From the NCBI GenBank assembly GCA_028532905.1, contig JAQQAM010000144.1, positions 1 to 32,011 on the forward strand: a stretch of DNA of 32,011 nt, written 5' to 3'. The stretch comes from Spirochaetales bacterium. Its GTDB lineage: Bacteria > Spirochaetota > Spirochaetia > DSM-2461. A program made the position numbers and the translations under genes. Positions 9,498 through 32,011 of this stretch are shown here, in pieces. Positions within the stretch are counted from its first letter, which is position 1, and every line of letters starts with the position of its first letter. The notes below the pieces were generated by a model. The model saw nothing but the letters and a program-made list of their open reading frames with translations. It made no database searches and was not told the DNA's origin.

Positions 9498-9526
9498 TTG
9501 TTGCAGGTTTGAATTCTTTGTATAAT
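9498..9526 (+). promoter_or_regulatory. promoter of the HU gene, leaderless arrangement
   Basis: TTGTTG (9498-9503), 17 bases, and a perfect TATAAT (9521-9526) are followed by the ATG at 9535 after eight bases (ATGGAAAT). No Shine-Dalgarno sequence exists, so transcription should begin at the start codon or one or two bases before it. Confidence 0.75.
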
Positions 9527-9534
9527 ATGGAAAT

Positions 9535-9810
9535 ATGAACAAGCAGGAACTTGTCAGAGAGCTTTCTCAGACACTGGACATCTCTCAGAAAACAGTGCGT
9601 CACACCCTTGATGCTCTGCTGGAAGAGGTCGTTCAGGTACTGGAAGAGGGTGAAAATTATACTCAAACCGGATTCGGAACATTCAGGACTGAAGTCTCAC
9701 AGGAACGGATAAGTTACAATCCGTCGCTCAAAAGAAGAATGCTTCTTCCCAAAAAAAGAAAGGTGAAATTCAGACCCTCTGCCAAATTAAAGGGAAGAAT
9801 CAATGAGTAG
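9535..9810 (+). CDS. HU/IHF-family DNA-binding protein
   Basis: The 91-residue protein has the length and plan of HU: an N-terminal helical dimer region (MNKQELVRELSQTLDISQKTV), the turn GFGTF at 47-51, a beta-arm region and a C-terminal basic stretch ending SAKLKGRINE. The arm is atypical. The usual RNPxTG tip is replaced by ISYNPSLKRRMLLPKKRKVKF, keeping one NP but not the TG. It binds and bends DNA as a dimer and is probably a nucleoid protein, though it may pair with the next gene product. It is the first gene of a two-gene operon; the next ATG overlaps its last codons by 8 bases. Confidence 0.85.
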   Translation: MNKQELVRELSQTLDISQKTVRHTLDALLEEVVQVLEEGENYTQTGFGTFRTEVSQERISYNPSLKRRMLLPKKRKVKFRPSAKLKGRINE

Positions 9811-11107
9811 ATTTCTGACCCCATCAAAAATGGCAGAGAGACTCGAGGACAAGGTGGAACTGGACCGGGAAATGACCGGAAGATTCACCAATGAACTGTT
9901 TGAAATCATTATCAGGGAACTTAAAAAAGAGGAAACATTCTCTCTCTTCGGATTCGGAAGTTTCAAAAAGGTGTACGTGGCTCCTGCCAAGGGACGGAAT
10001 CCACATACCGGAGAAGCCATCTACGTACCCGCCCACTATAGAATCAAATTCACAGCTGCCGGAAAACTGGCCGAAAGAATCAATGCCGAATACGCACACC
10101 TCAAACCGGTGCTTCTGGATGAAGAAGTCATCCATGAAGGGCTGCTGCTGAAAGCGGAGCGTTATATAATGACTGCCGCCGCCGAGCCTGAGCCGGAAGG
10201 GGCAGAGCAGGAAGATCCCACCGTTCCCATTATAGAAATGAACACAGCCCCTGAGGAAGGACAAACTCAGGATACATCCGCCCAGGAAGCACCTGCTGAA
10301 GAATCAGAAGCCCCGGCAGTCTCTGTAGTCGAGGAAACTTTTATACCGGAACCATCAGCAGAGGATACTACCAAAGAGGAAACAGACTCCCGGGAGCCGA
10401 TAGAAGAGCATCATGTTCCTGATTTCGGCTTTAAAAAGGACAATAGAAACAGAGTTGTAAAACTGACCCTCCTGACTCTCCTGGCCCTTCTGATCGTATT
10501 GGGACTGGGATGGCTTATATTCCGGAATATAGGAACCCCTTCCGGAACTGAAATTATTGTCACCGAAGAGAAAGCTCCGGCTCCTTCCGAAACCGCTGAA
10601 CCTGAATCCACGGCACCTGAACCGGAGTCACTGCAGGGGTCTGAAACGGCCGAAGAGAGCCCTGAACCTGTACAGGAATCAGCGACAACGGCGGAAGCAG
10701 TTCCTGCAGGACCGGAAACGAACTACTCCATAAGTCCCGGAGATTCCTTCAGTCTTCTGGCTCAGGAGAGCTGGGGAAATATCTATCTCTGGCCCTATCT
10801 GTACAGCAGGAACAGCAGTTCCTTTCCCGACCCGGATCTTGTCCGCCCGGGAGATGAAATTGTGATTCCTCCCCAGCCGGATCAGACCAGAGACCAGATA
10901 CGAATTGAGGACAGTATACTCTTCGCCTATCAGCGGTACAGAACTCTGATAGCCGAACAGAGCGACAACCCCCGGAACCCGAGAAGGACTCTCAGTGCGG
11001 GCTATGTTCTCCTGGGCGGAGAAAGAATGTATCCCAGCTTCCTGGAACGCAGGCAGTCTGAGATCAGAATTGAAGATATCAGAAGAGTCGAAGACCTGAA
11101 CCGCTGA
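9803..11107 (+). CDS. HU-domain / transmembrane / LysM-like fusion protein
   Basis: The 434-residue protein has three clear parts. Residues 1-95 are a full HU domain with GFGSF at 50-54 and the intercalating-arm motif GRNPHTG at 64-70. Residues about 125-215 are an acidic, Pro/Ala/Glu-rich linker. Residues 218-240 form one strong membrane helix (VVKLTLLTLLALLIVLGLGW), followed by a second Glu/Pro/Ala linker to about 302. Residues about 306-357 look like a LysM domain (YSISPGDSFSLLAQESWG, then LVRPGDEIVIP). With the HU part inside the cell, the LysM part would be in the periplasm, where LysM binds peptidoglycan. This suggests a nucleoid-to-envelope link. Its start overlaps the upstream HU gene, so the two are coupled and may form heterodimers. 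Confidence 0.88.
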   Translation: MSRFLTPSKMAERLEDKVELDREMTGRFTNELFEIIIRELKKEETFSLFGFGSFKKVYVAPAKGRNPHTGEAIYVPAHYRIKFTAAGKLAERINAEYAHLKPVLLDEEVIHEGLLLKAERYIMTAAAEPEPEGAEQEDPTVPIIEMNTAPEEGQTQDTSAQEAPAEESEAPAVSVVEETFIPEPSAEDTTKEETDSREPIEEHHVPDFGFKKDNRNRVVKLTLLTLLALLIVLGLGWLIFRNIGTPSGTEIIVTEEKAPAPSETAEPESTAPEPESLQGSETAEESPEPVQESATTAEAVPAGPETNYSISPGDSFSLLAQESWGNIYLWPYLYSRNSSSFPDPDLVRPGDEIVIPPQPDQTRDQIRIEDSILFAYQRYRTLIAEQSDNPRNPRRTLSAGYVLLGGERMYPSFLERRQSEIRIEDIRRVEDLNR

Positions 11108-11115
11108 AGTCTCCC

Positions 11116-12978
11116 TTAATCCTCCTGACTCAGAAAATCCTTATATGACACAAGCTGAATTCCGTTCTTTCTGGCTTTCTGCAGCTTGGAGCTGTTTCCT
11201 TCAGGGTCCTCACACAGGAGGATGGATGTGGACTTAGTCACAGAGGAAGAGAACTCATACCCCCGGGACTCAATGATTTTCTGCAGCTCCTTTCTGCCCA
11301 AAGGGCCTTTTCCGGTCATACAGACCTGACCACGGGATTCCAGGACCTCCACCTCTTTAAGCTCAACAACCTCCAGCAGATTGTCCAGGAAACTCATGTT
11401 ATCCTCATTATTCTTCCAGGCAATGATATTCTGACCTGCCACATAGCTGTCATCCTCAAAATGGAGGAACTCCTCCATACTCTTGATTCCCAGTTTCTTC
11501 AATGCCTTCTGCTGTACCAGGGGAATACCCAGCTTGCTGATCAGTTCAGGAGCCGTCATCTGACGCACCTTGTCGATCTGCTGAAAGAAGTTGCTGATCT
11601 TTTTTTCGGCAAACCCTTCCAGACCTACAAGATTCTCTGTCTGAACCCTGTAGAGATCACTCACATTGGATATGATTTTCTGTTCAAAAAGCTGACGGAT
11701 GGTGGCTTCGGCAATCTGCTCCATCCCGGACTCTTTCACCCAGTACAGAATGGTCTGAATTTTCCGTTCGGGACATTCGGTGTTGGTGCATTTCAGGTGC
11801 ACCCCTTCGGTCTTCACCTCACTTTGGCAGACAGGGCACTGACCGGGAGCCAGATCCGTAAAAAAGAGATCCCCGTCCCTGCCCTTTGAGGAGAGATTTT
11901 CTTTAACATAGGGGATGACATCATTGGCCCTTTCTATCAAAAGTTCATCCCCCAGCTGAAGAGCCATGGACTCTACAAATGCATAGTTATGAAGGGAAGC
12001 CCTGGACAGATTGGCCCCGCCCAGCTGTACTGATTCAAACAGGGCTACCGGAACAAGGGCACCCTGCCGGCTGACCTGCCAGTCCACACCGGTGAGCTTT
12101 GTTTTTTTGGCTGCCGCAGGAGGTTTGATGGCAATGGCATAATGGTGATGGTGATCGACTACCCAGCGGCTGTCAATTTCCTCATGGATGGTATTATCGT
12201 CAACCGTCAGGATCAGACCGTCTGTTTCATACAGCCACTTGTCCCTGTACGTCTCCAGATACTGATTGTAGAAGGATTCGATATCCCCTCTGGACCCGAT
12301 ATTAAAGTACTCTACCGTATGAAATCCGGCATTTGTAAGCCAGTCGATAATACCGGCTTCACTGTCGGAAGGATTCCAGCGGGCTGTCTGATAACAGACA
12401 AAACGCACATACTTCAGGTCTTCCCGGTTTTCCTTTCTGTTGACCAGACCGACACAGTTGTTCCGGAGGGGTCTCCCCTGGGTATCATATACTGTATCTT
12501 TGGGCAGATAGAGCTCTCCCCTGATTTCAATATCATGTTCTTTTTCGGATATGCTTTGGGGGATGTCTGTAATAAAGTCGGAGATGGAAGTGACATCCTG
12601 CCCTACTGTGCCGTCCCCTCTGGTGGCCACATACTGAAGCACTCCCCCGCTGTAATAACAGCTGGCAGAAAGACCGTCAATTTTAGGCTGCATGGTCCAT
12701 TTTGTATCCCGGGGCATGGCAAGCTTGTCCAGCCACTTGAATACATCCTGAGGAGACTTGGCCTTCCCCATGGAGAGCATGGGCTCCACATGGGTGATCT
12801 TACCGCTCCCGTCAGCGGCAGCTCCAACCACAGAAAAGTAGGTACTTCCGGGATTGAGTGCCCGCAGCTCATCCTCCAGCCGGTCAAACTCCGCATCCGA
12901 CAGCAGAGGGGTATCGGTATTGTAATATGCATCCTTTGCTTCGGTCAGAAGCTTGATCAGATCCTGTTCTTTCAACAT
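11116..12978 (-). CDS. ligA: NAD+-dependent DNA ligase, divergent LigA
   Basis: The product is about 620 residues, slightly shorter than typical LigA (about 670). Order of parts: a short Ia-like N-terminus, the adenylation domain with nucleotidyl lysine K99 in KIDG, TRGDGTVGQDVT, IRGELYLP, an OB region (VSRQGALVPVALF, RANDVIPYV), a four-cysteine zinc site (CPVC and, after a spacer, CTNTEC), helix-hairpin-helix repeats (LVGLEGFAEKKI, LGIPLVQQKALKKLG) and a C-terminal BRCT domain. Several usual motifs are altered: NPRNAAAGSLRQ reads RNNCVGLVNRKEN and the AYKFPA lysine motif reads AIKPPA. It may be a second ligase beside a standard LigA. The start at 12978 is preferred: GAGGTG precedes it, while the longer version from 13017 overlaps the -10 box. 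Confidence 0.87.
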   Translation of the reverse strand: MLKEQDLIKLLTEAKDAYYNTDTPLLSDAEFDRLEDELRALNPGSTYFSVVGAAADGSGKITHVEPMLSMGKAKSPQDVFKWLDKLAMPRDTKWTMQPKIDGLSASCYYSGGVLQYVATRGDGTVGQDVTSISDFITDIPQSISEKEHDIEIRGELYLPKDTVYDTQGRPLRNNCVGLVNRKENREDLKYVRFVCYQTARWNPSDSEAGIIDWLTNAGFHTVEYFNIGSRGDIESFYNQYLETYRDKWLYETDGLILTVDDNTIHEEIDSRWVVDHHHHYAIAIKPPAAAKKTKLTGVDWQVSRQGALVPVALFESVQLGGANLSRASLHNYAFVESMALQLGDELLIERANDVIPYVKENLSSKGRDGDLFFTDLAPGQCPVCQSEVKTEGVHLKCTNTECPERKIQTILYWVKESGMEQIAEATIRQLFEQKIISNVSDLYRVQTENLVGLEGFAEKKISNFFQQIDKVRQMTAPELISKLGIPLVQQKALKKLGIKSMEEFLHFEDDSYVAGQNIIAWKNNEDNMSFLDNLLEVVELKEVEVLESRGQVCMTGKGPLGRKELQKIIESRGYEFSSSVTKSTSILLCEDPEGNSSKLQKARKNGIQLVSYKDFLSQED

Positions 12979-13006
12979 GTTCACCTCAGGGTATGTTATT
13001 GAGTCT

Positions 13007-13035
13007 ATCATAATCACTATAGCCCGTTATGCGAA
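13007..13035 (-). promoter_or_regulatory. promoter of the DNA ligase gene
   Basis: On the minus strand TTCGCA (13035-13030), 17 bases, then TATGAT (13012-13007). The transcript would start near 13000 and give a leader of about 20 bases with GAGGTG before the ATG at 12978. Confidence 0.6.
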
Positions 13036-31293: not shown

Positions 31294-32011
31294 TCAGTCC
31301 TCCTCCCCTTCAGGCAGGGGCATGGCCGCTGCTTTTTCCTTACTGCCTGCCGAAAATTTGAAATTAGGACTCCAGTGAGCTCCTTTTGCCGGAATCGTTA
31401 TCTCTTCTCCGGTTTTGGGATTTCTTCCAAGACGTGCCTTCCTGCTGGGTTTCAGGGTCAGTGAAAAGCGCCCCAGTCTGCCGAAAGAGACATTCTTGCC
31501 CAGGAGCATTCCTGTTTCCAGCATAGAGACATAGTCGTCTGTGATTTCCCTGATTTTATCCTGGGTCAGACCGCTCTTTTTGGCCAGATAGGCAATAATA
31601 TTCTGTTTATTAAACTGATCGGCTTCCTGACTGTCCAGAGGAAGGGTCAGATCACGGTTTAAATGAATAAAAGAATTGGTCAGAAAGACAGTGGCTTCGT
31701 GGACTCTTTTTTCCTGCTCCCCTGCCGGAACATCTTCCCGGCAGACAACAATTTTATACAGAGCCGATGTATTTTTCAGGGGGCCTGCGCTGAACGCCGC
31801 AGCCCGTCCGTAAGCGGCCGGCGCCCCGAGGGTCGTTTTTTCGCAGCGGACAATATCCGGCACATCAGTTCTGAGAGAAATACTGGCATATTCAAGCCAC
31901 CGCTCTTCACCATACCCCAGAGTGACCAGAGAACCGGAAAAAGTCAGCAGTAACCCCGCCCTGGGATCATCGGCAGACAGCTCTTCCACTTCTTCCATAT
32001 CCAGCAGTTTT
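31294..32011 (-). CDS. HU-fold DNA-binding protein, 5' end outside the window
   Basis: This minus-strand gene is partial: the reading frame stays open to the window edge, and the ATG at 31998 has no ribosome site, so the true start is probably beyond 32011. The visible 238 residues comprise an N-terminal region I do not recognise and a C-terminal HU domain of about 100 residues (IIAYLAKKSGLTQDKIREITDDY, FGRLGRFSLTL, then ARLGRNPKTGEEITIPAKG with the RNPxTG arm). An HU domain after a long N-terminal region is unusual. It is the third HU-fold gene in this window. Confidence 0.82.
   Translation of the reverse strand, partial: KLLDMEEVEELSADDPRAGLLLTFSGSLVTLGYGEERWLEYASISLRTDVPDIVRCEKTTLGAPAAYGRAAAFSAGPLKNTSALYKIVVCREDVPAGEQEKRVHEATVFLTNSFIHLNRDLTLPLDSQEADQFNKQNIIAYLAKKSGLTQDKIREITDDYVSMLETGMLLGKNVSFGRLGRFSLTLKPSRKARLGRNPKTGEEITIPAKGAHWSPNFKFSAGSKEKAAAMPLPEGEED

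Follow-up and report, generated by a model that had tools for sequence, protein, structure and literature searches.

Except in a few models, little is known of how bacteria hold their chromosome at the cell envelope. Bacteroidetes reportedly possess proteins in which HU-CCDC81_bac_1 and HU-CCDC81_bac_2 domains are followed by a membrane helix (TM) and a SPOR domain, and Burroughs et al. are said to have predicted a role in chromosome partition for them in 2017. Here, we analysed a stretch of 32,011 nucleotides, in the following called the window, which represents contig C144 of a Spirochaetales genome (4.98 Mb, 296 contigs). It encodes two overlapping HU-family genes, HU1 and HU2, and the second continues through a membrane helix into a LysM domain. 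A full-text literature search covering few subscription journals returned no paper on an HU-LysM protein or on the HU1/HU2 pair; the accessible part of PMC10434189 is an unrelated gene list. The pair may be a device tying DNA to the cell envelope, and a specialised HU heterodimer whose stalk points to the wall, kept as a pair in at least three phyla, would be a simple and genetically testable candidate for such a function. The following features were assigned in the window.

9535-9810, + strand: HU1, HU-family gene encoding 91 aa, the first of the bicistron (PF00216, E 1.9e-22, 79.8 bits with a cut-off of 22.4)
9718-9723, + strand: arm tip of HU1, N62-P63 (conservation of the arm-tip proline)
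9790-9797, + strand: putative Shine-Dalgarno-like stretch AAGGGAAG within the 3' end of HU1, 5 nt ahead of the HU2 start (seen directly)
9803-11107, + strand: HU2, the HU-TM-LysM protein, 434 aa, ATG start, 8-nt overlap with HU1
9818-10084, + strand: HU domain of HU2, residues 6-94 (PF00216, E 1.2e-19)
9995-10003, + strand: arm tip of HU2, R65-N66-P67 (read from the sequence)
10088-10120, + strand: post-HU motif EYAHLKPVLLD, residues 96-106 (alignments)
10121-10453, + strand: acidic linker, presumably cytoplasmic, residues 107-217 (residue counts over 96-217)
10454-10522, + strand: membrane helix, residues 218-240, VVKLTLLTLLALLIVLGLGWLIF (hydropathy)
10523-10717, + strand: P/A/E-rich linker, residues 241-305 (composition)
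10718-10867, + strand: LysM domain, residues 306-355 (AlphaFold2 pLDDT 97.6; LysM matches in the PDB)
10868-11104, + strand: C-terminal helical domain, residues 356-434 (AlphaFold2 model)

With a probability of roughly 55%, HU1 and HU2 assemble into a heterodimer resembling IHF, which binds DNA and is fixed to the envelope across the membrane. HU1 would be the small, soluble subunit and HU2 the subunit on a membrane-spanning stalk with its LysM end in the periplasm, and the heterodimer would sit on the cytoplasmic side of the membrane. DNA could be bent by both arms in Spirochaetota, so that the complex would tie it through the membrane; this DNA would presumably be the chromosome, bound with little or no sequence preference. 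The acidic linker may serve as a flexible, DNA-repelling tether, while at the envelope end the LysM and helical domains would bind peptidoglycan or another periplasmic ligand. Sequences and models establish the order of domains, the LysM fold, the conserved bicistron with its natural fusions, and the separate origin and shared inheritance of HU1 and HU2; the heterodimer, the topology, the binding of DNA and of peptidoglycan and the role as a tether are inferences.

The initial annotation had described in HU2 a HU domain with its arm, an acidic linker, a helix at residues 218-240 and a second linker. PF00216, hydropathy and residue counts agree with all of these parts, and their coordinates were right; overlooked were the overlapping HU gene at 9535-9810 and the C-terminal helical domain at residues 356-434. 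The HU domain of the window HU2 reaches 70.8 bits with PF00216 (cut-off 22.4), which places it in the HU/IHF superfamily, and all HU2 relatives (48/48) match this profile. The EYAHLKPVLLD motif is common to the HU2 proteins of Spirochaetota, candidate division KSB1 and some Bacteroidota. Residues 96-217 contain 33 D/E and 9 K/R. The complete layout is kept in relatives of the same or a near genus with 60%, 58% and 45% identity and is thus more than a product of chance.

The LysM-like domain recognised earlier is borne out by structure, though sequence profiles stay below cut-off. An AlphaFold2 model of residues 305-434, built from a 43-row alignment, has a mean pLDDT of 97.6 and a pTM of 0.90 and consists of a beta-alpha-alpha-beta LysM fold followed by four helices. 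Its top match in VIA-align is the LysM domain of Kbp in 8zex (Z 6.5, 55 aligned residues, 1.3 Å), and the best rows are mostly LysM domains with Z of 5-6.5; Foldseek alone returned no match for this model at E ≤0.001. By sequence, PF23457 (E 0.015) and NCBIfam PRK11198 (E 0.0011) both remain under their cut-offs in the window protein, and the LysM profile PF01476, with which 6 of the 48 HU2 relatives are matched, gives no match to it, which leaves it outside the family as defined by sequence. The helical domain behind the LysM domain was found in Spirochaetota, KSB1 and some Bacteroidota and is missing from Muribaculaceae-type proteins. The same genome also encodes a 227-aa paralogue (contig C107, 4036-4719) with a helix, a LysM domain and a helical C-terminus and lacking a HU domain; it sits after a radical-SAM-like gene, an order repeated at locus L185 of genome G349. 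At another locus (L026), LysM and helical domain likewise occur without HU. According to the accessible part of PMC9481166, the LysM domain of Kbp partners and supports a K+-binding BON domain, so that the LysM domain of HU2 need not bind peptidoglycan, a point which counts against the DNA-anchor reading.

No N-terminal signal was found in HU2, and the window protein has five K/R before the helix and one after it. Together with the position of the LysM domain behind the helix, this order of parts fits the link between nucleoid and cell wall proposed by the initial annotation; HU1, which had been overlooked, changes the mechanism by which such a link would work. Among 50 proteins, including two (L091 and L105) which lack a genuine helix in the ORF considered, K/R were more frequent on the N-terminal side of the helix in 35, equal in 2 and less frequent in 13, and these 13 speak against DNA anchoring. 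The linkers between HU domain and membrane helix span 30-252 aa and contain more acidic than basic residues in 42 of 48 proteins.

HU1 of the window is basic (net charge +6), and a small HU gene of this kind immediately precedes HU2 in 87 of 90 distinct loci from Spirochaetota, Bacteroidota and KSB1; in the remaining three, two HU domains are fused in frame before the membrane helix. Chance co-location of two HU genes was rejected on these figures. The loci were collected in two sets. In the first, comprising 20 loci of Spirochaetota (the window included) and 30 others, HU1 was located directly upstream on the same strand in 50/50 cases, with overlaps from +32 to -75 nt and most often of 8, 11 or 4 nt. 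The second was drawn from 247 genomes of one Bacteroidales order, of which 42 had a profile match with E ≤1.1e-26; all 42 were read, and HU1 was upstream in 39 (30 and 8 loci plus that of genome G395, identical with L091 of the first set) and fused in 3. For the 87 distinct loci, two repeats (L139 of L076 and G395 of L091) were each counted once. L107 and L108, truncated at contig ends, were excluded from locus counts, while L091 (frameshift) and L105 (run of N) entered the pairing counts and were left out of the protein counts. This constant adjacency or fusion makes it improbable that HU2 acts as a homodimer, with HU1 being a separate nucleoid protein that has no more than the transcript in common with it, although HU proteins often homodimerise and HU2 of Spirochaetota has a full arm; moreover, a homodimer of the Muribaculaceae version would be devoid of the arm-tip proline.

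A TATAAT sequence is present at 9521-9526 (+), 8 nt ahead of the HU1 start, and no Shine-Dalgarno-like stretch precedes the ATG; the HU1 transcript might be leaderless. A promoter scan upstream of HU1 found no sigma-70-type site and did not call this TATAAT.

A survey of the layout across spirochaetes, as proposed earlier, recovered the full HU-TM-LysM arrangement, but only in 16 of 392 sampled Spirochaetota genomes, among them two of the genus of the window and many Treponema-like ones; the genomes sampled represent part of larger groups. With this patchy occurrence, the pair is not universally needed, which weighs against the DNA-anchor reading. In named contigs, the pair was found in Treponema socranskii, Spirochaeta sp. 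UBA5339, Muribaculaceae, other Bacteroidales and candidate division KSB1, and the true host range is at least this wide, given that the scan relied on two peptide patterns. Non-spirochaete genomes contributed 30 of the 50 loci of the first set and all 37 further loci, so the suggestion that the protein guides chromosome position in a long spiral cell is not supported as a general function, and a spirochaete-specific function was rejected because the pair also occurs in Bacteroidota and KSB1.

Such patchiness, together with strong profile matches in just 42 of the 247 Bacteroidales genomes, is what one would expect of an accessory element for mobile DNA, acting in defence or in plasmid or phage maintenance at the membrane. 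We regard this as scarcely credible: PADLOC gave no match to HU2 and only a marginal Csa3 match to HU1 (E 0.008), none of the plasmid or phage records reaches a coverage of 80% of the protein (17-26% among the matches listed), and the flanking genes are housekeeping-like. A mobile or defence element thus found no support in the PADLOC and plasmid/phage record searches.

Beyond the pair, the closest genes vary from clade to clade, being rbsD and ligA in the genus of the window and, in other clades, genes resembling ketol-acid reductoisomerase or purB (the latter identified by eye). Only HU1 and HU2 therefore stay together, and no third conserved gene was seen among the nearest neighbours. This bears on a further alternative, a membrane-held regulator or sensor whose LysM and helical domains would respond to the wall or to a ligand in the periplasm and thereby alter transcription or the local structure of DNA. 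The long, flexible linkers flanking the helix and the Kbp-like LysM domain would suit a sensor, but HU is the sole output domain and the varying neighbours offer no fixed target operon, which renders this alternative very improbable.

Two other genes of the window may be mentioned. An NAD-dependent DNA ligase (11116-13017, -), convergent with the pair, scores 367 bits with the NCBIfam LigA profile (cut-off 444), has a weak zinc-finger match and stays beside the pair in the genus of the window or one near it. At 31294-31998 (-), a 234-aa ORF carries a C-terminal HU domain (PF00216, E 4.7e-15, residues 130-222) preceded by about 128 residues without a Pfam match; a similar, longer frame occurs in genome G397.

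The origin of the two genes was examined in a tree of 124 HU domains, comprising 41 HU1, 41 HU2 and 42 other HU proteins from these phyla, several of the latter encoded by the same genomes; 18 near-identical rows had been dropped. HU1 falls on one side of a branch with an SH-aLRT support of 89, which is moderate, and HU2 does likewise with 99, both apart from the 42 other HU proteins; tree detail is weak as only 95 columns were usable. The distance matrices of HU1 and HU2 are correlated over 49 loci (Mantel r 0.916, with 0 of 2000 permutations as high), although shared ancestry by itself raises r, too. These results suit one old pair that was inherited or transferred together.

The arms are kept to a different extent in the two proteins. 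The arm-tip proline, by which the ability to intercalate into DNA was judged, is present in both HU1 and HU2 of the window and occurs in 84 of 87 distinct loci for HU1 versus 28 of 87 for HU2. Thus, HU1 has the better-kept DNA-bending arm and usually retains the proline where HU2 has lost it. In the first set, it was found in 50/50 HU1 and 25/50 HU2, the latter made up of 18/20 in Spirochaetota and 7/30 elsewhere, while HU1 of Spirochaetota has it in 20/20. The 38 later loci have it in 35 HU1 and 3 HU2 (34/37 and 3/37 without the repeat L139). Loss of the arm residues in relatives, which the initial annotation had named as evidence against its proposal, is accordingly common in HU2 outside Spirochaetota and rare within; it does not affect the pair as a whole, since HU1 retains the proline throughout the first set. 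In three Bacteroidales loci (L164, L167 and L174), both arms are degenerate, the HU1 arm tip being L and HU2 lacking an arm, and three fused proteins described below look arm-poor; both observations argue against the DNA-anchor reading. As the unit outlives the loss of DNA-binding features in some Bacteroidales, DNA may not be its only ligand.

Heterodimer formation was approached by structure prediction. In three Bacteroidales-type pairs, both genes share one frame, and in two of these the HU1 stop alone separates them. One such pair (L075, a Bacteroidales pair and not that of the window) was folded with the stop read through and gave a pLDDT of 88.4 and a pTM of 0.81 from a shallow alignment of 13 rows, three of which cover the HU1 half. 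Such a high pTM suggests that HU1 and HU2 are fixed relative to each other, though any two HU units might pair likewise. Both halves of the model were matched by VIA-align with single-chain IHF (2iif, Z 11.2; 2iie, Z 11.1; 150-151 residues, 3.2-3.3 Å) and with tandem-HU microtubule inner proteins (Z 10.8-13.1). The model also aligns with chains of 9io5, which are subunits of the gliding G1-ATPase of Mycoplasma mobile (Z 12.9).

The matches with microtubule inner proteins would fit a trans-envelope protein scaffold in place of a DNA tether, in which HU1-HU2 recognises proteins, as eukaryotic CCDC81 does, and LysM holds the complex in the envelope. PF14908 (HU-CCDC81_euk_1) matches 5 of 48 HU2 proteins with E ≤0.001, and the persistence of the unit despite arm loss in several Bacteroidales points in the same direction. 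Against a scaffold stand the arm-tip prolines kept in Spirochaetota by HU1 and HU2 alike and in nearly all HU1 proteins, as well as the positive charge of the window HU1, and we consider it possible but doubtful.

Natural one-ORF fusions were found at three loci of the Bacteroidales set (L177, L179 and L182). The first half of L182 scores 41.6 bits as HU1, 24.2 as HU2 and 23.2 as other HU, and its second half 17.2 bits as HU2, 4.6 as HU1 and 5.8 as other HU; these profile scores identify L182 as HU1 followed by HU2. In L177 and L179, the first halves also score best as HU1, and the second halves favour no clear profile. In Pfam, L182 matches PF18175 weakly (E 0.0079) while L177 and L179 match neither PF18174 nor PF18175, so a link of the fused proteins to CCDC81 is only hypothetical. 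A spirochaete protein (L015; 1273-2673, -; Spirochaetota) has two arm-less HU-like repeats, a helix, a LysM domain (PF01476, E 2.7e-8) and a helical end, and its architecture resembles the CCDC81 type. As a HU1-HU2 fusion it was rejected, its first half scoring best as ordinary HU (23.2 bits versus 17.9 for HU1). The pair also hints at a possible route to armless tandem-HU proteins. It would be bold, and we think it unlikely, to take HU1 plus HU2-TM-LysM as an ancient and so far undescribed anchor that connects DNA across the envelope by means of its own HU heterodimer, and from which fusion and arm loss (L177, L179, L182 and perhaps L015) led to the armless CCDC81-type tandem-HU proteins.

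Compared with known systems, HU1 and HU2 share the PF00216 domain and the arm with canonical HU; they differ in falling outside the canonical rows of the tree, and HU2 adds linker, TM and LysM. Kbp/YgaU of E. coli provides the LysM domain closest in structure to that of HU2, and differs in that it teams up with a K+-binding BON domain, as far as the available part of PMC9481166 describes it. IHF alpha/beta (1ihf; single-chain 2iie) likewise consists of two distinct HU-fold subunits, gives the best PDB sequence match for both proteins (HU2 versus 2iie, E 5.5e-15) and matches the fold of both halves of the L075 pair model; its subunits, in contrast, are soluble. Like IHF subunits, HU1 and HU2 are two distinct cognate proteins, forming separate groups, being co-encoded and having correlated distances. 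In the NCBIfam IHF alpha/beta equivalog (cut-off 111 bits), HU2 scores 51.7 and HU1 50.5. Judged from these comparisons, HU1 and HU2 would work like IHF and are not members of IHF proper.

PF18174, PF18175 and PF05036 are the HU-CCDC81_bac_1, HU-CCDC81_bac_2 and SPOR domains of the Bacteroidetes proteins. The analogy with these, already drawn by the initial annotation, holds: a search of 16 genomes recovered CCDC81-type proteins from six, each of them assigned to Bacteroidota through its source search. There they are encoded elsewhere than the pair and are thus separate proteins, which coexist with HU1/HU2 in some Bacteroidota. Of two such proteins scanned, L172 has a SPOR match below the cut-off (E 0.0048) and L169 none, so SPOR is a putative label for these proteins. 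PF18174 has no match in the genome of the window; the window HU2 matches neither PF18174 nor PF18175 in Pfam, and HU1 stays below the cut-off of PF18175 (22 versus 35 bits). The SPOR profile does not match the window HU2, and the C-terminus folds as LysM plus helices. HU-CCDC81-TM-SPOR differs from the pair in being one gene, in its arm-less HU units and in having SPOR in place of LysM. Even without its defining domains in the window pair, it is the nearest analogue, with two HU-like units, one membrane helix, placed after HU as in the window HU2, and a C-terminus of the peptidoglycan-binding type.
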